A DNA stretch of 53,828 nucleotides from a virus. This document shows positions 3,607 to 38,449 of the stretch, in pieces. The position numbers were made by a program, and so were the translations under genes. The notes beneath the pieces are model-generated. The model saw only the letters and a list, made by a program, of their open reading frames with translations. It was not told the origin of the DNA and did not search any database. How positions within the stretch are numbered: the stretch's first letter is position 1; every line of letters starts with the position of its first letter. Location of the stretch: positions 1 to 53,828 of the IMG/VR virus record IMGVR_UViG_3300021062_000019; one strand, given 5' to 3'.

Positions 3607-4320
3607 ATGGCAGCAAATAAATTATCAGGTATTGCAAAAATAAGAGCCAAAGAAATTATTACTAGCGTATTTCTGTTTAATGGTGATGAGCAGACAGCTA
3701 TAGATCGTGTGTATCAAGAGCTTGGTGTTCAACTTAGCGAACGTCAGATTCAGTACTATTTTACCGATATAAAAAAACCTATCCAAGAAAACCAAGAACA
3801 GCAAGCCCAAGAAGCACTAGAAGAAATCAGGCAAAAAGAATTAAAGAAGCTCGACTACTTAGAGCTAGAAGTTATTCAGCAATGGCATAGAAGTAAACAA
3901 AACGCTGAAAGTATAACAGTTGAAAGTGTTGGGGTTGATGTAGATGAATTAAACCAACTCAAAAAAGACTTACCACAGGATGATAAATTTGCTGATGATC
4001 CTCGTAATCCTGACCCAACTCTAAAAGAAGATCTTAAAGTCCAGGTCAAAACCAAAGAGAAAAGAAAATCATCTGGCCGTATTGCAGAGCCTCGCTACAT
4101 TAAACTTCTTGTCGAAATACAAGCAAGACGCGCTCAACTGCTTGGCTTGGACAAAAAGGATGATCGCCTAGATTGGCGAGAACAGCTAAGAAAAGCTGGT
4201 TTAGACGAAACAACAATCAATGCAATTGAATATCAACTTACAGAACTTATCTCAAAGTATATTGCCGGGCTTAATAACGGCAACAATACCCAAAGCCAAG
4301 AAAACGGCTACGTCTCTTAG
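3607..4320 (+). CDS. terS: Putative terminase small subunit
   Basis: Residues 1-60 read as a helix-turn-helix-like segment (GDEQTAIDRVYQELGVQLSE, then RQIQYYF). A long charged helical part follows (about 65-100) with KKLDYLELEVIQQWHRSKQ, a pattern I associate with phage small terminases. The C-terminal portion contains EPRYIKLLVEIQARRAQLLGL, also typical of TerS-like proteins whose last helices mediate oligomerisation and contact the large subunit. The large terminase gene overlaps the 3' end by about 100 bp. TerS recognises the packaging site and hands DNA to TerL. The call rests on pattern and position. Confidence 0.72.
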   Translation: MAANKLSGIAKIRAKEIITSVFLFNGDEQTAIDRVYQELGVQLSERQIQYYFTDIKKPIQENQEQQAQEALEEIRQKELKKLDYLELEVIQQWHRSKQNAESITVESVGVDVDELNQLKKDLPQDDKFADDPRNPDPTLKEDLKVQVKTKEKRKSSGRIAEPRYIKLLVEIQARRAQLLGLDKKDDRLDWREQLRKAGLDETTINAIEYQLTELISKYIAGLNNGNNTQSQENGYVS

Positions 4321-5581
4321 ATTAAACGCTGAGCATAAGTATACACCTTATGGCATAGCAGCTAAGATCCAAGATCTTGATGTACCTGAATTATTGGTTT
4401 CTGGCCCAGCAGGCACAGGCAAGAGTCGTGCTTGCTTAGAGAAGCTTCACACAATTTGCCAAGATAATGCTGGAGTTAGATGTTTAATTGTTCGTAAAAC
4501 TCGTGAGAGTTTAAGTGAGAGTGCTTTATTTACTTTTGAAGAACATGTTTTAGGCCCAAGTCATCCCCTAAAGGATGGAACAAAAAGACGTATCAGGCAG
4601 GTTTATCATTATCCCAATGGTAGTGAAATTGTTGTTGGTGGGATGGATAAATACTCCAAGATTATGTCTACGGAGTTCGATTTAATTTATGTTCAAGAAG
4701 CTACTGAGTTAGAAAAAACGGATTGGGAGGCTTTAACTACTCGTCTTAGGAATGGCAAGTATCACTACCAGCAACTAATAGCTGATTGTAATCCTGAAGC
4801 TCCAGGACATTGGTTAAAAGTTCGTTGTGATTCTGGCAGAACATTACTACTAGATAGCGATCATAAAGATAATCCTGTTCTTTGGGATCAAGAAAAACAG
4901 GAGTGGACTAAAAAAGGTAAAGCTTATATAGCCAAGCTAGACGCTCTAACAGGTGCAGAAAAAGATAGGCTCCGTTATGGTAAATGGGTTCAAGGTACTG
5001 GTGTTGTTTACTCTGAATGGGTAGATAAGCCGGATGATCCTGATAATAGTAATGTAACCTATAACGCTGAGTATGATCCTAACCTTGATGTTTATTGGAC
5101 TGTAGACAATGGATACTCAGGAGAAGAAGACGAAAACGGGGACTTTACTCCTGATTCTCACCCATTAGCAATTTTGTTCTATCACCTGCTCGATAATGGC
5201 GATATGCTTATTTTTGATGAACTGTACAGGATTAGGTTACAACCAGAAGAAGTAATTAGGGAAGCGTTACACACTAAGCCTTATCCAAAACCACGCCAAG
5301 CAATAGTTGATAAAAGTGCAGCAGCATTAAAGGATCGCTTATATGACGATTTCGGTATTTATTATATTAGCAGTCAAGGTTTTGTCGATGAAGGCATTAA
5401 AAAAACTAGATCTTGGATTAAGCCTGATCAGAATGGACACAGAAGGTTAAAAGTGAATCCTAGGTGTAGACACCTCAGAAAAGAATTTGTCAGTTACGTT
5501 TATGGCAAAGATGGCAAACCAAAGAAGGCAAACGATCACGGCCCAGATATTGTTAGATATGCTTGTGTAGAACATAGTTAA
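4220..5581 (+). CDS. terL: Terminase large subunit (packaging ATPase/nuclease)
   Basis: The 453-aa product has an N-terminal motor domain with YTPYGIAAKIQ leading into Walker A GPAGTGKS (about 61-68), the coupling segment RKTRESLSES, and a Walker B-like DLIYVQEATE (about 154-163) ending in the expected acidic residue. The C-terminal nuclease half has candidate metal-binding acids at VDNGYSG (about 294), MLIFDELYR and AIVDKSAA (about 363). It cuts concatemers and drives DNA into the prohead through the portal, encoded two genes downstream. The ATG at 4220 overlaps terS by 101 bp; no better in-frame ATG lies before the motor domain, but a later non-ATG start is possible. Confidence 0.94.
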   Translation: MQLNINLQNLSQSILPGLITATIPKAKKTATSLRLNAEHKYTPYGIAAKIQDLDVPELLVSGPAGTGKSRACLEKLHTICQDNAGVRCLIVRKTRESLSESALFTFEEHVLGPSHPLKDGTKRRIRQVYHYPNGSEIVVGGMDKYSKIMSTEFDLIYVQEATELEKTDWEALTTRLRNGKYHYQQLIADCNPEAPGHWLKVRCDSGRTLLLDSDHKDNPVLWDQEKQEWTKKGKAYIAKLDALTGAEKDRLRYGKWVQGTGVVYSEWVDKPDDPDNSNVTYNAEYDPNLDVYWTVDNGYSGEEDENGDFTPDSHPLAILFYHLLDNGDMLIFDELYRIRLQPEEVIREALHTKPYPKPRQAIVDKSAAALKDRLYDDFGIYYISSQGFVDEGIKKTRSWIKPDQNGHRRLKVNPRCRHLRKEFVSYVYGKDGKPKKANDHGPDIVRYACVEHS

Positions 5582-5950: not shown

Positions 5951-7441
5951 ATGTCTTTTCTATCTAAGTTTCAAAATATCCCAATAGTAAAACGTGCTGC
6001 TAATGTCTACAATACTTTTATAGGCAGTAATGAAGCTGCTACTACACCCCAAGGCACTCCAGCTAAGACAGGAGAGACTCATCCTTTGGTTGGGTTTAGT
6101 GATCCTTCTCCTTCACAGCACCAAGTTAATTTTAGTTACAACACACCACAGCAACGGGTTAGGAAAAATATTGAACTAGATGTAATGATTGCCTTAAACG
6201 TTGAACTGAAAACGGCATTAAAGAATTTAGCTTATGATGCTGCTGGGACGTTTCAAGGTATTAGGGTTGTTAGTGCTGTAAATAAACCTTTAACTCAAAA
6301 GGTTGTAGATGATTTTGTTAAACGAACAAAACTAAAAAGATACTTAGCAGAGATTTTTAGACGTTGCTTATTGTATGGCAATGGCTTTCCACAGCACGAA
6401 ATAAAAAGGATTTCTAATACTAAAGCTCAGATTAATCAATTATTTTGGATGCCCGTTTATGGAATGATCCGTTGTAGTAACGAGCTAGACCAGTTTGAGA
6501 ATGTAGACGAGGCGTATCAATTACCTGATTTATCTTTAGGTGTTTGGCAGAAAAACTCTAACGTAAAATTGCCTGTATGGGCAATTAACCATATCAGGTT
6601 TTTTAATCTACCAGGAGAGCCTTACGGTTTTTCTTTGTTTGAATCCAATTTAGCTAGTAAAACGAGCCAGCAATTAGTTGATTTGTTAGTTGAATTATAT
6701 TGGCAAAGAAAATACAGCACTGTTACCGATATACACTTATTACAAGGCCCTGAAAATAGACCTGCAAATGATGAGCTATTGCGCAACCATGAGAGCAAAA
6801 TATCTAAGCTAAGAAGAATTATATTAGGGCAAGCTCCTCTTAGAGATCTTGTAATGGCCACAGGTTCTGTTAATCGTTTACCTTCTGATGCCAATACAGA
6901 TAAAACAAAAGACATTGAACTTCGCGCAGCAATCTCCCTAGCAGAAGCCCACCAATCTAGACAAATGATTTCTGATGATCAGTTTGCTAATGTTGGAGTG
7001 TTAGTAGAAAAGTACAGACAATTTTACAACCGACAAGAAACCCATCTGCAAATGATGATCGGTGAACTTGATGAGTCTGTACAGTTTGAGTTAGCTCTTA
7101 ATGGTATTGATCCTGGAGATGTAGAACTAGAATATCAGGTCGCACAAACCTTTTTGTTTCAAGATCTTGTAGTAGCTAACCAAGAGGCTAGAAATGATTT
7201 AGATAAAGGGTATATTACCAAAGACACCAAAATCAAAATAGGCTCAATGCTTTATCGTGTAAGCGCGAAAAGTGAAACCGAGAAACTTGCTCAAGAACAG
7301 AAAGCTAAGGAAATCACAGAGCAAAATCAATCCGATGATGTTCGTAGAGTCGTTGAAAACAAGCTTGAGAAAACCGATATACAATCTCGCCCAGTGGCTT
7401 TAACAGAAGTTGACCCAATAGAATCCCAGCAAATCAATTAA
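5951..7441 (+). CDS. Portal protein
   Basis: At 496 aa with the usual place after terminase and before the protease/capsid gene, this reads as the dodecameric head portal. Typical features are the stretch beginning LDVMIALNVELKTALKNLAY, a stem/clip region with FFNLPGEPYGFSLFESNLAS, and a helical C-terminus with EAHQSRQMISDDQFA. The last 60 residues are charged and low complexity. The portal forms the channel for DNA entry and exit and nucleates capsid assembly. It begins 4 bases after the preceding stop. Confidence 0.88.
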   Translation: MSFLSKFQNIPIVKRAANVYNTFIGSNEAATTPQGTPAKTGETHPLVGFSDPSPSQHQVNFSYNTPQQRVRKNIELDVMIALNVELKTALKNLAYDAAGTFQGIRVVSAVNKPLTQKVVDDFVKRTKLKRYLAEIFRRCLLYGNGFPQHEIKRISNTKAQINQLFWMPVYGMIRCSNELDQFENVDEAYQLPDLSLGVWQKNSNVKLPVWAINHIRFFNLPGEPYGFSLFESNLASKTSQQLVDLLVELYWQRKYSTVTDIHLLQGPENRPANDELLRNHESKISKLRRIILGQAPLRDLVMATGSVNRLPSDANTDKTKDIELRAAISLAEAHQSRQMISDDQFANVGVLVEKYRQFYNRQETHLQMMIGELDESVQFELALNGIDPGDVELEYQVAQTFLFQDLVVANQEARNDLDKGYITKDTKIKIGSMLYRVSAKSETEKLAQEQKAKEITEQNQSDDVRRVVENKLEKTDIQSRPVALTEVDPIESQQIN

Positions 7442-7448
7442 TGATCAA

Positions 7449-10400
7449 ATGTATAAATTAAAAGAATTTGAACCTATATTCTTGGAGTATAAGCTCAGAC
7501 AAGATGATACTGCCAAAGAAGAGGATAAACTTGTCTCTGTCCTATATGAGGTTACACGTGCTGATACCCCTATGGTTGATGGGGAGTCTCTTACATGGGA
7601 TTCAATGGTGGAAGCTTGTGAAGCTTGCCAGCAGGATATCCTCGATGGAGCAATGTTTGGTTACCTTGGGCACCAGCCAAAAGTTTTTGATCAATTTGGT
7701 AATCCAGTAGGTTTTTATCCTGATCCAGAAAAGCGTTTATTTAAGGCTTCTTCTATGTGGCCTGACTACGAAGAAAAGAGGATTTTATCTTGGGCAGACT
7801 ATCTAGATAATTTCTTAGGCAGACAAGAGTCTAAGAAGATTAGGCAACAGGGTTTTAGGCCAAAAGTCTCGATGACTTCCTTTGTAAGTCCTAGCTCTAA
7901 GGGAGATGGGGTTTATGATGTAACCCGCATTGTTAATTTTGATCAAGTTGCAGTTCCTAATATGCGCTCTGCTGTAATGCTTCGCTTTAACTCTTCTCCA
8001 GAAGTAGAAGCAAAGTACAGAAAAGATTTAGAGAAATATTACCTAGAACAATCTAACCACAAAGCAAAACAAGATCCTCTAAACTCTCAACAAACGAAAC
8101 TTATTAAACCAAAATATTTCAATAGCTTATCGCCAGATCTTAAAAATAACTCTCGATCTGGCAAATTTATTTTTTGTCAAAATTCATCCAGAACGGGAGA
8201 TAATAAAATGAAACTAAATTTTCAATCAAAGTTTATGCAGAATAAGCTTGCCCAGTACTCTGCCATTCTCTCTTTAGAGGCAGTCTACGGCATGGCTTTA
8301 GGTGGCTGGCTAACTCAAGAGGGACTAATCGCGCTCAAGTATTGGTGCGATACACTGCAAGAGTTAATGGAAGGGGGCAAAGCTGCTAGTACTAGTGTTA
8401 GTACCGATGCAACTGATGCAGAGATTTCCACAGAAGCAACTATGATTGCTACTGATGCCAGAGAATTAAATAAGGCGATTGTTGAGCTTAATAAGACCTA
8501 TGATCAAAAGAAGAAGGACAACGCTCCGAACTTCATTGATATGGTTAAACAGCATTCAACTATTCAAGCAACAGAAAAAGAGAATTCTGCTATTACTGTT
8601 TTAGCTAACCAAATGTCAGAACTAACTAAAATTGTTGGTACTTTGGTAACTGATGGTCGTCCAAAAGTAGAGGAAAAACCAAAAGAAGAGAAGCCAAAAG
8701 ACGATAAGCCTACATTAGTTACTGATTCTAGAGAAGATATTGAAAAATATATTGATAGTTTATTGGCAAACGATGTTATTAAGTTTGGTGATTTGAATTA
8801 TCAGAGAGCGTCTTTTGCAAAGAAAGATGTTGAGCTAATCCGTCAAAACAGTTTACTTGCCGACAGTAAAGCCAATGCTGAGAAATCATTAGCTAATGGC
8901 TTCGCTCTTCTTTCACAACACAACGCACAAAACTTTTTAAATGGCAAAGGTTTTGATATTAACAATTCTGATTTGAAGCCTAAAGGAAGTACAACAACTG
9001 TGGAAGCAAACACCAAATCTAGATACGATCAATTCCAAGAAGCTTACTTAGATAACGTCGCTAAGCATGATTATGGTAAGGCTAAGCAAATTCGTCAGAA
9101 TATGGCTAGTGCAGCATATCAGGAAAAAGTTAAACCCATTAAACAGATGGCATTAAAAAATGCTGAAAATGAGTTAAAACGTATTGCTGAATATGCGAGT
9201 GCAAAAGGTTTACGTACAGATGGCGTTTTTGATCAAGGTGGCGTTCACGGTGCAGTCGATAGGGTTTTAGATTTATTACCAAAAGGATCTGGCAATAGAA
9301 TGATGGCTCTACGTACTGATGCAGCAGCTCCAGCCGTTGTTGATAGTACTGTAAATGTAATGTTGCCTATCCTCTCATTGGTAAGTAGATTAGCACCAGT
9401 TGAAGACTTAGATATATTGCTTACCTGTTACTCTGGTTTGGGTTCAGACTCTCTAGATTCTACTCCTCCAATCGGTTCACCCGCTTTTGGTCGTACTTTT
9501 GCTTTTACTCAAGATTATCCTGCTGTTGCAACAGGCGATAATGACGATCCTGATAATTTAGAGTTACTTGTAACTACCCAAGGCAAGAACAAATTACAAG
9601 AAATTTCTTCTAAAAACAAACGTGAAGAGTTCGTAGCACATGATTATGGGGCTACAGTCAGATTGGCTCGCCAACATATGGTAGCCCTAATGGAAATTAA
9701 CTATGATTTAGCGGCTAATCAAATTAGGCGTGCTACTGAAAAAATGACTCGTGATCAAGTTACAAGAGGATTACGAGCTTTATTTAGACGCGCTGGAGAT
9801 GCTAATGCTAAGGCCAGAACAGATACAGTAGCAAACGTTGCTCCAAATGGTTCACAAGCAGCAGGATCGCTTACCTATATTGGAGAATATAAACAACGCT
9901 CTGGTGCAAACGTAGCAATTAATTTAGCAGGTAAAACCTTTGGTGGTACAGCTTCTAATATTGATGCAGTTGTTCGGGTAATTGGTGGTCAAACTAGTAA
10001 TACCGCGATAAAGAATGTACCTTTAGCAAGTTTTCGCACTGAATATTCAGCATTGAAAAACGGCGATCTTGATACAGTAAAATACAATGAGATTACCGTT
10101 GTTATTAATTCTGTTGATATTAGCGAGCATAGAGGACGCATTGCAACAGACTCTAATGGTGTAACCTATATAGCACAGCGTTTAGGTGGGTCTGCAACTC
10201 CAAAATGGGCAGAAGATGAGGATGGTTTTATTTGTTTAGCTGCTGGTGCTGGTCAAGGTAGTAATCCAACAAGTCCACAAATTGTCGTAACCTACTATGA
10301 ATTAACAAATTGCATTTGGCAAAAAATCGATTCTGGTACAGACGATCAACAAAAGTTCTGGAGAGAGTACATTTATAACATTGCTGATCAGAATAGTATA

Positions 10401-10850
10401 TTAGCTAGTAAGCCTAACTACGCTCGTGCTGATATGGTTTTACATGATTCTGTAATTGGCACTCAAATCCGCAAGGCTGATTTATTTAAGGCTGATAGCC
10501 AATTAGGAGAGCTAGAAATTCTTTCTGAGCAAATGAAAGCAGTTGCTAGATATGATTGGGAAACCCATATTTCTACTAATGCAACAATGCCATTTGGATC
10601 AAGAAGATCTTTATTAATGAAACAAAACTACGGCAAAATGGCTTCTCAGATTGGTCAATTTGGTAATTGGTATCAAGGTCAAACTGTGTCAGGATCAGAC
10701 ATTCTAACCCTTGACGCTATACTTGCCGATATTTATATGCGTGAAGTGTTCGGCATTAGCTTACTTACAGATCCTAACAATCAAAATAAAGCTACTGGAT
10801 TTCCATTTACTCAGATTATTAACTGGGGAATCCTTAAATCTCAACAATAA
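7449..10850 (+). CDS. Fused prohead protease - scaffold - major capsid protein
   Basis: A single 1133-aa frame seems to hold three head functions. Residues 1-200 look like a prohead serine protease: candidate catalytic His75 in MFGYLGHQPK and candidate Ser141 or Ser144 in RPKVSMTSF, the arrangement of herpes/HK97-type maturation proteases. Residues 254-600 are helical and Glu/Lys-rich with low-complexity linkers, as expected of a scaffold or delta domain. From about 617 onward comes a folded HK97-like capsid protein (VDSTVNVMLPILSLVSRLAP, ending in TGFPFTQIINWG). An in-frame ATG at 8208 (residue 254) has its own GGGAGA site 7 nt upstream, so an 880-aa scaffold-capsid product may also be made. 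No separate capsid gene is present nearby. Confidence 0.82.
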   Translation: MYKLKEFEPIFLEYKLRQDDTAKEEDKLVSVLYEVTRADTPMVDGESLTWDSMVEACEACQQDILDGAMFGYLGHQPKVFDQFGNPVGFYPDPEKRLFKASSMWPDYEEKRILSWADYLDNFLGRQESKKIRQQGFRPKVSMTSFVSPSSKGDGVYDVTRIVNFDQVAVPNMRSAVMLRFNSSPEVEAKYRKDLEKYYLEQSNHKAKQDPLNSQQTKLIKPKYFNSLSPDLKNNSRSGKFIFCQNSSRTGDNKMKLNFQSKFMQNKLAQYSAILSLEAVYGMALGGWLTQEGLIALKYWCDTLQELMEGGKAASTSVSTDATDAEISTEATMIATDARELNKAIVELNKTYDQKKKDNAPNFIDMVKQHSTIQATEKENSAITVLANQMSELTKIVGTLVTDGRPKVEEKPKEEKPKDDKPTLVTDSREDIEKYIDSLLANDVIKFGDLNYQRASFAKKDVELIRQNSLLADSKANAEKSLANGFALLSQHNAQNFLNGKGFDINNSDLKPKGSTTTVEANTKSRYDQFQEAYLDNVAKHDYGKAKQIRQNMASAAYQEKVKPIKQMALKNAENELKRIAEYASAKGLRTDGVFDQGGVHGAVDRVLDLLPKGSGNRMMALRTDAAAPAVVDSTVNVMLPILSLVSRLAPVEDLDILLTCYSGLGSDSLDSTPPIGSPAFGRTFAFTQDYPAVATGDNDDPDNLELLVTTQGKNKLQEISSKNKREEFVAHDYGATVRLARQHMVALMEINYDLAANQIRRATEKMTRDQVTRGLRALFRRAGDANAKARTDTVANVAPNGSQAAGSLTYIGEYKQRSGANVAINLAGKTFGGTASNIDAVVRVIGGQTSNTAIKNVPLASFRTEYSALKNGDLDTVKYNEITVVINSVDISEHRGRIATDSNGVTYIAQRLGGSATPKWAEDEDGFICLAAGAGQGSNPTSPQIVVTYYELTNCIWQKIDSGTDDQQKFWREYIYNIADQNSILASKPNYARADMVLHDSVIGTQIRKADLFKADSQLGELEILSEQMKAVARYDWETHISTNATMPFGSRRSLLMKQNYGKMASQIGQFGNWYQGQTVSGSDILTLDAILADIYMREVFGISLLTDPNNQNKATGFPFTQIINWGILKSQQ
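8195..8210 (+). promoter_or_regulatory. Internal ribosome-binding site and start codon inside the capsid fusion gene
   Basis: GGGAGA at 8195-8200 lies 7 nt before ATG 8208, which is in frame with the 7449 start. It falls at the junction between the protease domain and the helical scaffold region, where a second start would release scaffold-capsid without protease. Confidence 0.6.
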
Positions 10851-10922: not shown

Positions 10923-11693
10923 ATGCCTAATTATTTAGAAGATTTTTATCTAGAATTACGTAGTTATATTAGTAATAACAAGTATTCTACAGAAGTTCAA
11001 GATAGCCATATCAATGCTGGTCAGAAACAAACTTGTTTGTTTATTTCTAGGTATAAGCCGAGAGTAAACCAAAAGAAGGATGTTGTTATTACAGATAATG
11101 CAACCAGTGTAGAATTGCCTTCCAACTTTAGATCCGCAACTTTAGGTGCTTTGCACAAACTTAAATATAACAGTAACTTACTAGACACTAATCTTGCTAA
11201 AGAGCAGATTGATATCTATAAAAGTAATTCTTATGGTAGCCAGCTAAAAAGTCGGTTTGATTCTGATGGTAGGGTTTTTGCCCAAATGCCTAATTTTGGT
11301 AATGCTGTAGGTGGTTGGCCGGGTTTAGGTAACTACGAGAATTATAATACTCGTGGTAATAACATTGATACTTTTACTATAGAGATTTTCTCCAACGGGA
11401 AAAAAGGTTGGTCGCTGTGGTTCGATGATGGGCAAGAGGTAGTTGCACGGACAGAAAAGCTTTTTCCTTATATAGCAATCCACGAAATTACTAGCACGGA
11501 AGATACTATTACTAATGATATTAGGGATGTTTTTATTGATTGGTGTGCAAGGCATACTTTTCTAGAAGCCTCTAGGCAATTCGCCAAAGAAGGCAAAACC
11601 AGTGAGGCAAAAATCATGGCTGAGCAAGCAGAACTCTACGGTCAATCTATTTGGGATTTAGGTGCTACTGTAGCAGTAAGTGATTTTTATTAA
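10923..11693 (+). CDS. Hypothetical head-completion / adaptor candidate
   Basis: The 256-aa product begins LEDFYLELRSYISNN and contains mixed alpha/beta sequence with a Gly/Asn-rich centre (GGWPGLGNYENYNTRG). The C-terminal helices include DWCARHTFLEASRQFAKEGK. A protein of this size directly downstream of the capsid gene is commonly the head-tail adaptor; the N-terminal helical segment and C-terminal helix bundle are compatible with that. No decisive motif is visible. Confidence 0.6.
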   Translation: MPNYLEDFYLELRSYISNNKYSTEVQDSHINAGQKQTCLFISRYKPRVNQKKDVVITDNATSVELPSNFRSATLGALHKLKYNSNLLDTNLAKEQIDIYKSNSYGSQLKSRFDSDGRVFAQMPNFGNAVGGWPGLGNYENYNTRGNNIDTFTIEIFSNGKKGWSLWFDDGQEVVARTEKLFPYIAIHEITSTEDTITNDIRDVFIDWCARHTFLEASRQFAKEGKTSEAKIMAEQAELYGQSIWDLGATVAVSDFY

Positions 11694-12098: not shown

Positions 12099-14732
12099 AT
12101 GAGAATATATAAGTTTTTATTGCTCTTAATCTTGATTAATTGCTTTTCTGCTGTTACTTACGCTCAGTTTCCTGTTGATACCAATGAGGTCAAAACCAAT
12201 CGGCTAGACTTTCGTAAAGGTGTAGCCTCTCCTACTCCTCCAGCAGGGATTACTAGAATCATTGTTGATGCCAATGGAGTAATAACAGTCAAACAATCAG
12301 ATGGCAGCACTACTTCGTTGCTTACTGGCTCTAGCGTTGTTACCTCTGTCTTTGGCCGTACTGGTGCAGTAACAGCACAATCAGGGGATTACAACACAAG
12401 TCAGGTAACAGAGAATACTAATTTATACTTCACAGATGCACGAGCTAGAACAGCCATCGATGGTACAAGCAGAACTTTATCAGGGTTGACCGTAACTGGT
12501 TTAAGTGGAGTAGGCAAGTTTTCAGGCGGTGTGTTAAGCGCTAGTGCTATAACCAATAGCGATGTTGATTCAGCAGCAGCCATAGCCTATTCCAAGCTCA
12601 ATTTAGCTTCTTCCATCGTCAATGCTGATATTTCAAACTCAGCCGCTATTGCTTACTCGAAATTAAATCTAACAGGCGCAATACTGAACGCAGACCTAGC
12701 AGGTAGTATCGCTAATAATAAGCTACTAAACTCGACTATAAGTGGAGTCAGTTTGGGCAGTAACTTAAATAACTTAAACATAGCAGCTAGGTTATTGGGC
12801 ACTTCTTACAATGGTTCTTCAGCAGTAACAATAGATTTAGCTGATAGTGGAGTTACAGCAGGTAGTTGCACAAATTGTGATCTAACAATCGACCAGTATG
12901 GACGTGTTACAGCCAAAGCAAATGGTTCAGGTGGATCAAGTGGGTATACAACAATAGCTGAAGAAGGCAGCAACCTAACCCAAAGAAGTGTACTCAATTT
13001 CATAGGGAGTGGTATTACTGCTACGGATAATTCAGGATCTTCTAGAACTGACATTACCCTAAATGAGGCAGGGGCTTCTACACCCGGAATCCTAACCTCT
13101 AGTGGTACACAAACCATAGGCGGCGATAAGATTTTTAACGGTTCATTAGGTATTGGTGGCGCAAGTATTACTTCTAATCCTATTGAAGTGGCCTTATCTG
13201 GCGCAAAGGGAATGAGGTTTAGGAATAGTAGCAGTAGTGGTGGCAGTGGTTTTCAAGTTTTTAATGATTTAGGGTTTAATGATAGCTACAGATTAAGCAA
13301 TGGCATTACTAGCACAACCGGACAGGTTAGCGCGGCCTTTGATGGAACGGCCTACACGTTTTATACAGGGATACCGTATAAAATCATTAGCGGTGGGAGT
13401 CATGTAATAACCCAAGTTTACACCACTAATGCAGAAACTTACTTTCCAGTAAATGTTGGCTTTGGGTCAACTACTGACCCTGAGGTTCAAATTGACGCAC
13501 GGGGGGCTTATGGTTTTGCGGTAGGCGCTAGAGTAAGAAACACTAGTGCTAGTTCAGCTGAAAATCAGCAAGCTGTTGTAGAAGTTGGCTTTACAGATTC
13601 GTATAGATTGTTAATGGTTAGTGGTAGTACTAATGTGCTAGGTGATGCTAAATTTAGTGCCAACTATTTTAATAGTATTGGTACTGCAATGAATTTTGTT
13701 GTCGATTCTACCTACCTAACTTTAGCTTTAGATACAAGTGGACACGCTACTTTTCGAGATACAGCTAGATTTAGATTTGGTGGAACGGGTACAAGTAATC
13801 CTGCACTAATCAATTCTGGTTCAACTTTGAAGGTTCGTTTGGCTAATGATTCAGGGGATGCACCCTTAACCGCTTTAAGTTTTAACGGGTTAAGTATTAC
13901 CACTACTACAGGTACACTTACAGTTACAAATGGAAAAACAATATCTTTTAGCAATACTCTTACCTTCACAGGAACTGATAGTTCATCTGTAGCTTTTGGC
14001 GGGGGTGGCACTGTAGCGTACACAGCAAACAATTTATCTGTATTTGCTAGTACAACTTCTGCTCAATTAGCAGGAGTTCTTTCTGATGAAACAGGTACTA
14101 ACAAGGTCGTATTTTCTGATAGTCCTACTTTAGTAACTCCCACTTTAGGAGTAGCAACAGCAACTAGCGTAACTGTAGCAAATACAGGTTATTATAATTT
14201 TACAGGTAGAGCAAAAATTACATCAGAAGCAGATGGAATAATTACTCTAGCAAATAATGCAGGGAACGGATTTACAGGTTTAGCATTTGGTCTGTACAAC
14301 GATGATGGCTTCCCATTCTTAAAAATCAATGGCACAGGACTTGAGCTCAAGGATGCTGCCGATGGGAATTATACTAATTTTAGGGCAGCAACTATTACTG
14401 CTAGTCAATTTGCAAATATAGTTACAACTAATACTGACAATGGTTCTGTTGCTGTTAGTCTACAAACCGGAATCATTCATTTTGCCCTGACAGGTAATTT
14501 AACTATTACGGCTCTAAATAGTGCTGTTACAGGTACTGAATACACTTTGGTTTTCACCCAAGATTCCAATGGGACTAGAACAGTAACATTTCCTAGCTCG
14601 GTCAAGTGGGCTGGTGGTTCTGCTCCTACAATCGCTACTGGTAATGGTGCTAAGAGTGTCATAAAAGTAATCTATGCACCAGATGGAACGACTAACTTTT
14701 ATGGCTCAACTCATTGTTTAGGATGTAGTTAA
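12099..14732 (+). CDS. Tail-fibre-like protein with N-terminal signal peptide
   Basis: Residues 1-22 form a textbook Sec signal peptide: MRIYK, a hydrophobic core LLLLILINCFSAV, and a cleavage-like TYAQF. The remainder is a repetitive Ser/Thr/Gly/Asn-rich beta fibre. It contains the motif VFGRTGAVTAQSGDY followed by LYFTDARARTA, widespread in phage side fibres and tail spikes, and an FPSSVKWAGG-type C-terminal domain shared by many phage fibre tips. The GGAGG before the ATG supports this start. A signal peptide on a virion fibre is odd: either the protein is exported by the infected cell or the N-terminus has been borrowed. The gene lies among head/connector genes rather than with the tail-tip genes. 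Confidence 0.82.
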   Translation: MRIYKFLLLLILINCFSAVTYAQFPVDTNEVKTNRLDFRKGVASPTPPAGITRIIVDANGVITVKQSDGSTTSLLTGSSVVTSVFGRTGAVTAQSGDYNTSQVTENTNLYFTDARARTAIDGTSRTLSGLTVTGLSGVGKFSGGVLSASAITNSDVDSAAAIAYSKLNLASSIVNADISNSAAIAYSKLNLTGAILNADLAGSIANNKLLNSTISGVSLGSNLNNLNIAARLLGTSYNGSSAVTIDLADSGVTAGSCTNCDLTIDQYGRVTAKANGSGGSSGYTTIAEEGSNLTQRSVLNFIGSGITATDNSGSSRTDITLNEAGASTPGILTSSGTQTIGGDKIFNGSLGIGGASITSNPIEVALSGAKGMRFRNSSSSGGSGFQVFNDLGFNDSYRLSNGITSTTGQVSAAFDGTAYTFYTGIPYKIISGGSHVITQVYTTNAETYFPVNVGFGSTTDPEVQIDARGAYGFAVGARVRNTSASSAENQQAVVEVGFTDSYRLLMVSGSTNVLGDAKFSANYFNSIGTAMNFVVDSTYLTLALDTSGHATFRDTARFRFGGTGTSNPALINSGSTLKVRLANDSGDAPLTALSFNGLSITTTTGTLTVTNGKTISFSNTLTFTGTDSSSVAFGGGGTVAYTANNLSVFASTTSAQLAGVLSDETGTNKVVFSDSPTLVTPTLGVATATSVTVANTGYYNFTGRAKITSEADGIITLANNAGNGFTGLAFGLYNDDGFPFLKINGTGLELKDAADGNYTNFRAATITASQFANIVTTNTDNGSVAVSLQTGIIHFALTGNLTITALNSAVTGTEYTLVFTQDSNGTRTVTFPSSVKWAGGSAPTIATGNGAKSVIKVIYAPDGTTNFYGSTHCLGCS

Positions 14733-32104: not shown

Positions 32105-33289
32105 CTAATTAATCAATTCCTTCTTCTCTCCCTCCTCCTGCTTCTCCTTCTTCTCTGGCTTCTGTGCATGGAACTGGTTTAGTGCTTCTGCTGCACGTCT
32201 AGCAGTATCAGTGTTAGCGTTTACGTAGCGATAGGTAGTGTTAGCCTGTGTATGGCCAAGGATTCTACCTACTTCTTGAAGCGGCAATCCTTGTTGGATA
32301 AGGCGTGTAGCTGCTGTATGGCGTAGATCATGGAATCGAAGATCTTTAATCTTTGCTAGTTTGCAGGCTGTTGCAAAGCTTCTTTTAATGGACTTAACTC
32401 CAAAGACTACTGCATCAGGATCACCAGTAGAAAGCTTGTGTAAAGCTTCTAGCTCTTGCTTTAATCTATAGCTAAGTGCTACCTGACGAGACGTAGAAGT
32501 CTTGGTGTTAAAAGCTTGAATGGTAATTAACCCATTATCAAAGTTTATATCTTTCCAGCATAAACTAAATATTTCTCCCTGCCTCATTCCTGTATCTAGG
32601 GCACAAATGATAATAGCTTTTAGGTGTACTCTTTCTTCTACGCATTGAGCTAATAATTCTTTCTCCTCCTGTCTACTTAAAATCCTCTCCCTCTTTACTT
32701 CATCAGCAGTGCTAATCAAATCACCCTTAGCGAAGGGAGATCTATTCAGCCATCCCTCATCAACAGCAATCTGCAATACTCTCCTAAGCAAAGATAGCTC
32801 ACGATTAACCGTTGTGATAGTTCTTGGCCTTTGAGTCTCTATCGGTTTTCCTTCTGCATCTTTCTTTACAGTGATAATGGGAGTTTTTAATCTGTGTAGT
32901 TTATAGTTGATTATATCGGCGTGTGAAATGGATTTGATTTTCTTATCTCCAAACCATTCCTTGACGGGTTTAAAATGGCTGGTGGCTTCTTTATGGGATC
33001 TCATACCAGAGATTTTACGAGTGGAGGAGTATTCAGCAGGTTTTAGGTAGTTAGCTGTAAAATATTCAGCCAGATCGTTAAAGGTCATTTGATCGGCTTT
33101 GAAAGTTTTTTCTCCATGATCTTCTAAGCTTCTTAGTAATTCTCTTAGTAGCTGTTTAGCTGCTGTTGCATTCTCTGCCCTTCGTTGGATATTTTTTCTT
33201 TTGCCTGACGAATCAGTAAATGTTAATCTAGCGAACCATCGACCTTGTTTATCTTTGCCTGTATACCCTGTAGTAATCTTACCAGCCAA
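32105..33289 (-). CDS. int: Tyrosine-recombinase integrase
   Basis: The 394-aa protein has an N-terminal arm-binding segment (about 1-60), a SAM-like core-binding domain (about 68-190, TFNDLAEYFTANYL) and the catalytic domain. Catalytic residues are visible: Arg236 (DTGMRQGEI), Lys263, His320 and Arg323 (HDLRHTAATRL), His346 (LGHTQANTT) and nucleophile Tyr355 (RYVN). It recombines attP (33476-33517), which lies about 190 bp upstream of its start, with a host tRNA-Arg gene. It is convergent with the late operon and ends in a Lys/Glu-rich tail. A GGAGG site precedes the ATG. Confidence 0.95.
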   Translation of the reverse strand: MAGKITTGYTGKDKQGRWFARLTFTDSSGKRKNIQRRAENATAAKQLLRELLRSLEDHGEKTFKADQMTFNDLAEYFTANYLKPAEYSSTRKISGMRSHKEATSHFKPVKEWFGDKKIKSISHADIINYKLHRLKTPIITVKKDAEGKPIETQRPRTITTVNRELSLLRRVLQIAVDEGWLNRSPFAKGDLISTADEVKRERILSRQEEKELLAQCVEERVHLKAIIICALDTGMRQGEIFSLCWKDINFDNGLITIQAFNTKTSTSRQVALSYRLKQELEALHKLSTGDPDAVVFGVKSIKRSFATACKLAKIKDLRFHDLRHTAATRLIQQGLPLQEVGRILGHTQANTTYRYVNANTDTARRAAEALNQFHAQKPEKKEKQEEGEKKELIN

Positions 33290-36278: not shown

Positions 36279-36590
36279 CTAAATAACTTCGCTAATTATT
36301 TCTTTTTGTTTATCTTGTTTCAGGATCACAGCTAAGGCTTCTTTTGTGTTGTGTATAACGTGGACTTGCCCTCTCCACTCCTCATGCCATTTCTTTTCTA
36401 GCTTTGTTAATTGCCTTTTTGAAGGTGGCTGCTTAGGATCTTTGACCTCAAACAGGTAATTGCAGCCACGAAAAGATACTAATAAATCAGGACAACCATC
36501 ACGAACGCTAGCCAAGCTTTGCACGGCACATCCCATCTGTCTGAGTTCTGCTACTATTTGAGCTTGATTGCTATCTACACGAGAGGGCAT
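36279..36590 (-). CDS. VRR-NUC-type nuclease
   Basis: The 103-aa protein has the PD-(D/E)xK layout of VRR-NUC nucleases: an N-terminal helix with QAQIVAELRQMGC, catalytic Asp in GCPDLLV, then the Glu-x-Lys pair in YLFEVKDPKQPPSKRQLT, and a final helix/strand with EWRGQVHVIH. Phage members are thought to process branched or replication intermediates. The start overlaps the stop of the DUF5131 gene by 16 bp, and RecT is encoded two genes further upstream, so it may belong to a recombination set. Confidence 0.78.
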   Translation of the reverse strand: MPSRVDSNQAQIVAELRQMGCAVQSLASVRDGCPDLLVSFRGCNYLFEVKDPKQPPSKRQLTKLEKKWHEEWRGQVHVIHNTKEALAVILKQDKQKEIISEVI

Positions 36591-37420
36591 TGCCTACCCT
36601 CCACACTTGGGAAATCTGCCCATTGCCTACCATCTAAAACAGGGAGTGAGATCTTGTTTTTCTTCTCATCCATCGCTTGCTTGTAGAAGAAATCCACACC
36701 GAACTTTTTACACTGATCACGAAGCGACCTAACCCAATCGTCGCTCATAGGACGAACGCCTTTACCTTTGCCGCTTTCAGCCCCAGCAATAATCCACCTA
36801 ATTTTTGAATCATAAATATATTCTTGCATTATGTTAGTTACAGGATTAGAGATAGCTAAATATCTACTAATATCTATCTGCTCCAAAAGAGGCTCACAAC
36901 TTATAAATAAATTTCTAGCAGGAACTTGAAGGAGGAGAGGAAGAAATTTATCAACAGTTTTTTGGCTACCAGCACTAACACCAAACCAACAGTTATCAAG
37001 CTTATTTATAGTATCTCTATGGTTTCCTGTTTCCTCTAAAAACTTAATTAGATTTTCTGGCCTTTTAGTTAATATTAAAAATGTGTGCTGTTCGCATTTT
37101 TCTATCATTTCTAAAACATCGTGAATAAACCAAGTAGGCACATCTTTATGAAACAAGTCAGCCATTGAATTAACAAAAACCCTTTCAGGAGTTTTCCAAG
37201 TAAGAGGTAGTCTAAGTAAACTACGAATGATTTTTACTTCTCCTGTCCATCTAACGCCGTTCGAGGTTAGCTTGGTCAACCCTTCATAAGGTTGACCTTT
37301 CCCACTAAATCTGTGTGCTTGTTTTTCGGCATAACAATTTTGACATTCAGGAGCTACACGCTCGCAACCTCTAACAACATTCCAAACCTTAGTTGCCCAC
37401 TCAATTGTCGTGTCAGCCAT
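36575..37420 (-). CDS. DUF5131 family (Gp37/Gp68-like) protein
   Basis: The 281-aa protein starts with the family's signature: TTIEWATKVWNVVRGCERVA followed by PECQNCYAEKQA, with Cys residues spaced as in a radical-SAM-like cluster site. Further hallmarks are RVFVNSMADLFH, FLILTKRPENL, NCWFGVSAGSQ and WIIAGAESGKG. This family is frequent in phages, and no reaction is firmly assigned to it. A ribosome-binding site (AGGTAGG) precedes the ATG, and the stop overlaps the VRR-NUC gene. Confidence 0.85.
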   Translation of the reverse strand: MADTTIEWATKVWNVVRGCERVAPECQNCYAEKQAHRFSGKGQPYEGLTKLTSNGVRWTGEVKIIRSLLRLPLTWKTPERVFVNSMADLFHKDVPTWFIHDVLEMIEKCEQHTFLILTKRPENLIKFLEETGNHRDTINKLDNCWFGVSAGSQKTVDKFLPLLLQVPARNLFISCEPLLEQIDISRYLAISNPVTNIMQEYIYDSKIRWIIAGAESGKGKGVRPMSDDWVRSLRDQCKKFGVDFFYKQAMDEKKNKISLPVLDGRQWADFPSVEGRQCPLV

Positions 37421-38449
37421 TTACTTACCTACCTTCTGCTGCTTCTCAGTAGCTTCTTTGATAGCCTGCTTTTTCTTATTGATCCAGATTCGTAGCTGAC
37501 TATCCTCAAACTTGTCATAGCCCTTTGGTAGTCTGTCACAGTTAGGATCAACGCTTTCTAGCTCTGCTTGGAGGTCACAGAGTTGGCCTAGTAGAGGGTT
37601 AGGAGGAGGTGCTTCAACAACTGGCTCTGGCTGTATATCAATAAATGTATCTGTTTTGACTTCTTGTGTGGGTTGTGGCTCTGGAGCTTCTACTGGCAGT
37701 GTTGGTATATCAGCACTGGTTAGCTGAGGAACTCGTGAGTAATCAATCTCGTGTTGTTCTTCAATCTGGCTAGCTCGTTCAACTTTAGCTAAGCCTGGTA
37801 TGTTGTAGGGAAGTAGCTTGCATAATCTTTTGATTACAGTCTTTTTGGCCATCTCTGGATAATCAGTAACCCAGGGGCCGTTATTGGCTGATTTGGATTT
37901 CTTTCTAATGTGGTCAATATCTGCTCTCTCCATTACGCAATGCTTAACTCTGCCACTAGCGAGATAAGCAATTGCATAAGCTGCTACAACTTCACCTCTA
38001 TTTGTTCCTACTTTTTCAGGTGGCTTATGCTTAATAAAAGGATTGGTTCCTAATTCATATTGAAAGAAATCTTTTTCATAAACACATTCTGACACTATAT
38101 CCTCAACAAATCCTTGCTCTTCCACTAGCTGAATGTAGCCACGATAACCAATCTGAAACTTAGCTTCATTGCCATAAGGCACGAGCCAAGCTAGTCCTAA
38201 TTTATTAACTGGTAGTCCTAAAGTAGCTGCATCATAAGCTGCTAGCGCTATTGATTCTGCTGTACATTTTTGCAACGCTACAGAAGCTGCTACGGTCGTA
38301 ATAACACTTGCTATATACAAATCCGCGCTATGACCTTTAGGCAATACTTCTATAAACTTCGGTTTCATCGTTGCTAATAAAGCAGATACTTTCTTGGTTG
38401 GCACCAATTGTTGATTCTGATTCTGTTGACTCTGTGTTGTTGCTGACAT
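37421..38449 (-). CDS. recT: RecT family single-strand annealing protein
   Basis: The 342-aa protein matches RecT: an N-terminal helical part with CTAESIALAAYDAATLGLPV and WLVPYGNEAKFQIGYRGYIQ (the family's core motif), then YAIAYLASGRVKHCVMERAD and SANNGPWVTDYPEMAKKTVI. It anneals complementary strands during phage recombination. The last 100 residues are a Pro/Gln-rich linker and a charged tail. A strong GGAGGAGG precedes the start although that start lies inside the upstream gene (113-bp overlap). No RecE-like exonuclease is evident. Confidence 0.94.
   Translation of the reverse strand: MSATTQSQQNQNQQLVPTKKVSALLATMKPKFIEVLPKGHSADLYIASVITTVAASVALQKCTAESIALAAYDAATLGLPVNKLGLAWLVPYGNEAKFQIGYRGYIQLVEEQGFVEDIVSECVYEKDFFQYELGTNPFIKHKPPEKVGTNRGEVVAAYAIAYLASGRVKHCVMERADIDHIRKKSKSANNGPWVTDYPEMAKKTVIKRLCKLLPYNIPGLAKVERASQIEEQHEIDYSRVPQLTSADIPTLPVEAPEPQPTQEVKTDTFIDIQPEPVVEAPPPNPLLGQLCDLQAELESVDPNCDRLPKGYDKFEDSQLRIWINKKKQAIKEATEKQQKVGK

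Follow-up and report, generated by a model that had tools for sequence, protein, structure and literature searches.

A single frame predicted to encode protease, scaffold and capsid

How one gene could supply both the few proteases and the many capsid subunits of a virus head is the question raised by a long ORF in the viral DNA analysed here, a single record of 53,828 nt that is referred to, at its full length, as the window. The ORF (7449 to 10850, + strand) starts with an ATG 7 nt past the end of the preceding gene and is a single frame of 1133 codons with no internal stop, predicted to encode a protease-scaffold-major capsid polyprotein of 1133 aa. The original prediction was of one such frame that fused the three head functions. 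The frame is indeed open throughout, and the fusion is supported, with the same layout recurring in phage proteins encoded beside a homologous portal gene. From its N-terminus, the protein has a predicted prohead protease domain (residues 1 to 202; 7449 to 8054, +), a linker (residues 203 to 253; 8055 to 8207, +) that leads to an internal start, a predicted delta-like scaffold region (residues 254 to 624; 8208 to 9320, +), assigned by its position and by a content of TD(S/A/G) words resembling that of the Emery-type scaffold region, and a predicted mature major capsid protein of 509 aa (residues 625 to 1133; 9321 to 10847, +) with an inserted beta-rich domain. An assembly or sequencing artefact that fused two genes is exceedingly improbable, as the same fusion is present in independent records.

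Neither the whole ORF nor its parts yielded an accepted relative when searched against Pfam, PHROGs, NCBIfam, PDB, phages, plasmids, IMG/VR and genomes, and a search of ~300 Chloroflexota genomes turned up no close match. The route to relatives was through the portal gene (5951 to 7441, +), which lies directly upstream of the fused ORF and weakly matched Brevibacillus phage Emery. Its product is a homologue of Emery gp4 (Emery portal profile, E = 5.8e-8 among the window ORFs; phrog_19480, E = 8e-5). The gene that follows the Emery portal gene, gp6 (AGR47351.1), encodes a 'hypothetical protein' of 1006 aa that is laid out like the window ORF. Scanning first with Emery gp6 and next with an alignment of portals yielded the 21 other relatives of this analysis, from clades reaching down to ~30% identity. 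In the Emery-type family, as in the window, the fused gene adjoins the homologous portal gene on its downstream side.

Genome context

The shared gene order continues downstream of the fused ORF. A probable head-completion gene (10923 to 11693, +) has a weak match to Emery gp8 (E = 0.0026), which is located two genes past the fused gene in Emery, so that the portal and gp8 matches occur in the same order in the window. Profiles of the Emery tail genes do not match the window, and the head module, rather than the tail, is therefore common to the two viruses. The terminase large subunit gene (4220 to 5581) encodes a protein with 38-44% identity to terminases from actinophages and metagenomes. 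It was considered as an anchor for finding head relatives and rejected, as the head genes of these terminase relatives are unrelated; the terminase has therefore been exchanged, and the packaging and head genes differ in origin.

Several other features of the window were documented. An ORF at 3607 to 4320 overlaps the terminase gene by ~100 nt in another frame, and the terminase start may be further downstream. A probable tail fibre of 877 aa is encoded at 12099 to 14732, with residues 590 to 683 that resemble cyanophage virion structural proteins, a hint as to the host. The minus strand between 32105 and 38449 has genes for an integrase (32105 to 33289), a DUF5131 protein (36575 to 37420) and RecT (37421 to 38449), from which the virus is probably temperate.

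Relationship of the capsid part to the Emery-type family

The first family profile matched window residues 834 to 1064 with 14.9 bits. When distant relatives were added, the broad profile (hmmsearch) matched residues 834 to 1061 with 28.9 bits (E = 1.6e-8 at a nominal Z of 1000), colinear with the same region of the family. A translated search of the whole record of one relative (E = 5e-5) and a PSSM test (p = 3e-4) agree on the capsid part; the PHROG 22848 model itself, to which Emery gp6 belongs, does not match the window protein. By these comparisons, the window protein's capsid part has a significant relationship to the Emery-type family.

That this family is a capsid family is a prediction. 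A search of family libraries revealed no member with an assigned capsid function, and profile comparison of the family capsid with those of gp23, Dagobah and P1312 yielded nothing more significant than p = 0.014, for gp23. AlphaFold2 models generated with the family alignment had pLDDT values of 41 for the capsid part and 39 for the protease, with no Foldseek match for the capsid model at E<=0.001. As the models are poor, neither an HK97 fold nor a protease fold is established. Translated searches of 50,697 phage records found the capsid family in Emery, in yong1 and, through a weaker capsid part, in Rctr41k; the fused proteins of Emery and yong1 are annotated as hypothetical. Residues 561 to 638 of Rctr41k (L121) gp30 pass the cut-off of the NCBIfam tail-tube model NF052337, apparently through an inserted Ig-like domain, and automatic annotation could misname Rctr41k-like capsids as tail tube.

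The N-terminal domain

In the relatives scanned, the N-terminal position is occupied by a head maturation protease of phrog_207, as in residues 177 to 402 of Emery gp6; this region also has weak Pfam S77 matches, and a profile made from Emery relatives matches T4 gp21 (5jbl) with E = 7e-10. The window domain aligns colinearly with these T4 gp21-type proteases. An H-x-P is present at His75 and a V-S at Ser141, 66 residues apart (65 in Emery), followed by an F-D at Asp165, making His75, Ser141 and Asp165 the candidate catalytic residues. Sequence similarity is another matter. The window domain has no significant match to any protease, with phrog_3014 (head maturation protease) matching weakly at E = 0.13 and a local PSSM test giving p = 0.06; a profile combining T4-like, Emery-type and Rctr41k protease sequences ranked the window 119 of 1001, not above shuffles. 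This lack of significance is what would be seen if the N-terminal 250 residues were some other head protein, with processing carried out by another enzyme or not at all. That alternative is nevertheless very unlikely given the phrog_207 protease at the same place in the relatives scanned, the matching spacing of His, Ser and Asp, and the strong enrichment of TD(S/A/G) words, described below, that the window has in common with its relatives. The domain is therefore predicted to be a protease by its position, its catalytic spacing and the TD words held in common.

A probable internal start at the protease/scaffold border

The original prediction also placed an in-frame ATG with its own GGGAGA at the protease/scaffold border, and this is confirmed. 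The ATG (8208 to 8210, +) is codon 254 (Met254), with GGGAGA at 8195 to 8200 and a spacing of 7 nt. With an anti-Shine-Dalgarno duplex energy of -7.4 kcal/mol, it ranks first of the 32 in-frame ATG and GTG codons of the ORF, and still first of 42 with TTG included, whereas the ORF's own start scores -1.1. A site of this strength is not, by itself, beyond chance, as an equally good score is reached at 3.4% of the ORF's positions, and synonymous recoding (p = 0.56) indicated no codon bias there. Both observations would suit an unused ATG left over from an earlier capsid gene that stood apart, in which case only full-length chains would be made and the protease would equal the capsid protein in number.

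The relatives argue otherwise. Each of the 22 has an in-frame ATG or GTG a few nt past a strong, AGGAGG-like Shine-Dalgarno sequence at the same border; this is the top-scoring in-frame ATG or GTG of the gene in 18, and the second or third in the remainder. The more distant Rctr41k gp30 has AAGGAG and an in-frame ATG there, ranked 3 of 54. Residues that flank the border start have diverged (KEDDKM, DIEEETM, KGDKKV, GGDDPM and KGDDIM are examples) but the Shine-Dalgarno has been kept, and the choice of codons favours it more than the encoded residues alone would demand (Fisher p = 4e-5 across 13 members and p = 8e-4 across 7 divergent members, values that overstate independence because the family members are related). 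A relic would be expected to decay, and the unused-relic explanation is quite improbable. Conservation in the relatives thus makes a site that is at chance level in the window alone a probable feature. Its use is something we infer from sequence.

Other features are present close to this border. Located at 8132 to 8162, 45 nt before the ATG at 8208, is an inverted repeat with perfect 8-bp arms (GCCAGATC/GATCTGGC) and, after it, a T-rich stretch. The repeat has an RNA folding z of -2.5 and could be a relic terminator or influence the internal start. Three relatives, L149, L154 and L160, have a DPDGDGD(V/I)DFY insert between the protease and the internal start, which is zinc-ribbon-like in L154.

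TD words as predicted processing sites

Short TD words between the domains had been put forward as possible processing sites, and this suggestion gains support from their enrichment in the window and recurrence in relatives, with the cleavage itself a prediction. Residues 211 to 640 have seven TD(S/A/G) words, where 0.41 are expected, and none of 5000 composition-preserving shuffles reached seven. The flanking domains have no excess, with none in residues 1 to 210 and one in residues 641 to 1133 (0.64 expected). In 13 family members, 64 such words are present, as compared with 12.6 expected, positioned mostly after the protease, inside the scaffold and directly before the capsid. In the window, on the + strand, the predicted sites, each with the cut after D, are STD320/A, ATD323/A and ATD336/A (8403 to 8459), LVTD402/G (8649 to 8657), LVTD426/S (8721 to 8729), LRTD591/G (9216 to 9224) and LRTD624/A (9315 to 9323). 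The last of these aligns with the LTDSA of Emery-type proteins (MAFFT) and is the predicted final maturation cleavage. As it is the last TD site before the capsid, the N-terminus of the mature capsid protein is predicted at residue 625 and not, as first proposed, near residue 617. The linker (residues 203 to 253) has no TD(S/A/G), unlike that of most relatives, and with no such site between the protease and Met254, release of the window protease would differ from that in the relatives.

TD words might instead be compositional or structural repeats of a scaffold, such as helix caps. Scaffold regions are of low complexity and TD cleavage is predicted from sequence, points in favour of this explanation, but shuffles that keep the composition fall far short of the number observed, the TD sites mark domain borders in the relatives, including the residues directly before the capsid, and the corresponding region of other fused proteins has its own repeated acidic words, AES for Rctr41k and LAE for yong1. 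Scaffold repeats of this kind are, on balance, unlikely. For the proteases of T4, phiKZ-type phages and SPN3US, the cut follows the Glu of motifs such as A-X-E (PMC5694885), and cleavage behind the Asp of TD/(S/A/G) would obey the same logic with a different acid.

Proposed mechanism and significance

These observations are brought together in a scheme in which the full chain provides few protease copies, the internal start provides abundant scaffold-capsid, and the protease cuts the TD words and so frees the capsid protein, a reading to which we assign a probability of roughly three in four. Translation from 7449 would give a low-abundance 1133-aa chain with prohead protease, scaffold and major capsid protein, and translation from the ATG at 8208 an abundant 880-aa scaffold-capsid precursor without the protease. 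Both precursors would join one prohead through their common scaffold and capsid parts, so that few protease copies would be built in. Cutting after Asp at the repeated (L/I/V/R)-T-D/(S/A/G) sites, the protease would then break the scaffold into pieces and free a ~509-aa capsid protein that begins at Ala625. The window's protease activity, capsid fold, internal-start use, copy ratio, co-assembly and cleavages are what we infer in this scheme. A T4 head has ~55 protease copies (PMC9958956) and 960 capsid copies (PMC5694885), and a protease to capsid ratio well under one is therefore expected; an internal site stronger than the first start fits an excess of scaffold-capsid.

The same arrangement is present in more than 20 distant relatives and is left unexplained by public databases. 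PHROG 22848 is annotated as function unknown, and a Brevibacillus phage paper appears to count Emery among the phages with no experimentally confirmed capsid protein (PMC4909266). Protease-capsid fusions are already known (NCBIfam scaf_prot_MCP2); a literature search found no account of the Emery-type triple fusion family or of its conserved internal start. If the scheme holds, it offers a one-gene answer to the head stoichiometry problem that extends from Emery-like phages to the distant window virus, gives PHROG 22848 a function, predicts a maturation protease that is specific for Asp and whose sites can be named, and accounts for annotation finding no capsid gene in such genomes. The broader proposal, that heads built from one gene are widespread but unannotated in tailed viruses, with the internal start setting the precursor ratio and a protease of the T4 gp21 kind with a new Asp specificity processing the precursors, stands at about even odds.

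Comparison with known systems

Emery gp6 (PHROG 22848) is a close parallel. As in the window, protease, scaffold and capsid are in one ORF after the portal gene, the capsid parts are homologous, an internal start has a strong Shine-Dalgarno, and TD(S/A) words are present at the borders. The two proteins are, however, only ~20% identical, and Emery gp6 has an extra helical domain before the protease and a TDS site directly after it. In Emery gp6, the predicted catalytic Ser is Ser278, the internal start would be Met343, and TD cleavage would place the capsid N-terminus at Ser564, following AITD. Rctr41k gp30, annotated as 'putative phage capsid protein and protease', similarly has a fused protease-scaffold-capsid with AAGGAG and an in-frame ATG at the border, but its repeated word is AES (with Glu) rather than TD, and the preceding gene is annotated as terminase-like, not portal. 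NCBIfam NF045541 (scaf_prot_MCP2) resembles the window in concept, as by its name it joins a scaffold, a protease and a capsid protein in a single polypeptide; none of the window, Emery, Rctr41k and yong1 proteins gives a match to this model.

In lambda (gpC/Nu3) and Mu (I/Z), an internal in-frame start results in an excess of protease-free scaffold. The capsid protein in these phages is encoded by a separate gene, whereas in the window it is part of both predicted nested products. In HK97 and T5, the protease is the product of a separate gene, unlike the window fusion. Their capsid proteins are nevertheless like the window protein in that scaffold is fused to capsid, the scaffold (delta) domain being inside the capsid protein sequence (PMC3185693). 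The T4 head (gp21, gp22 and gp23) has the same kind of protease as the Emery-type relatives and is likewise processed by cuts after an acidic residue, but it is encoded by three separate genes, and the cut is after Glu rather than the Asp predicted for the window.
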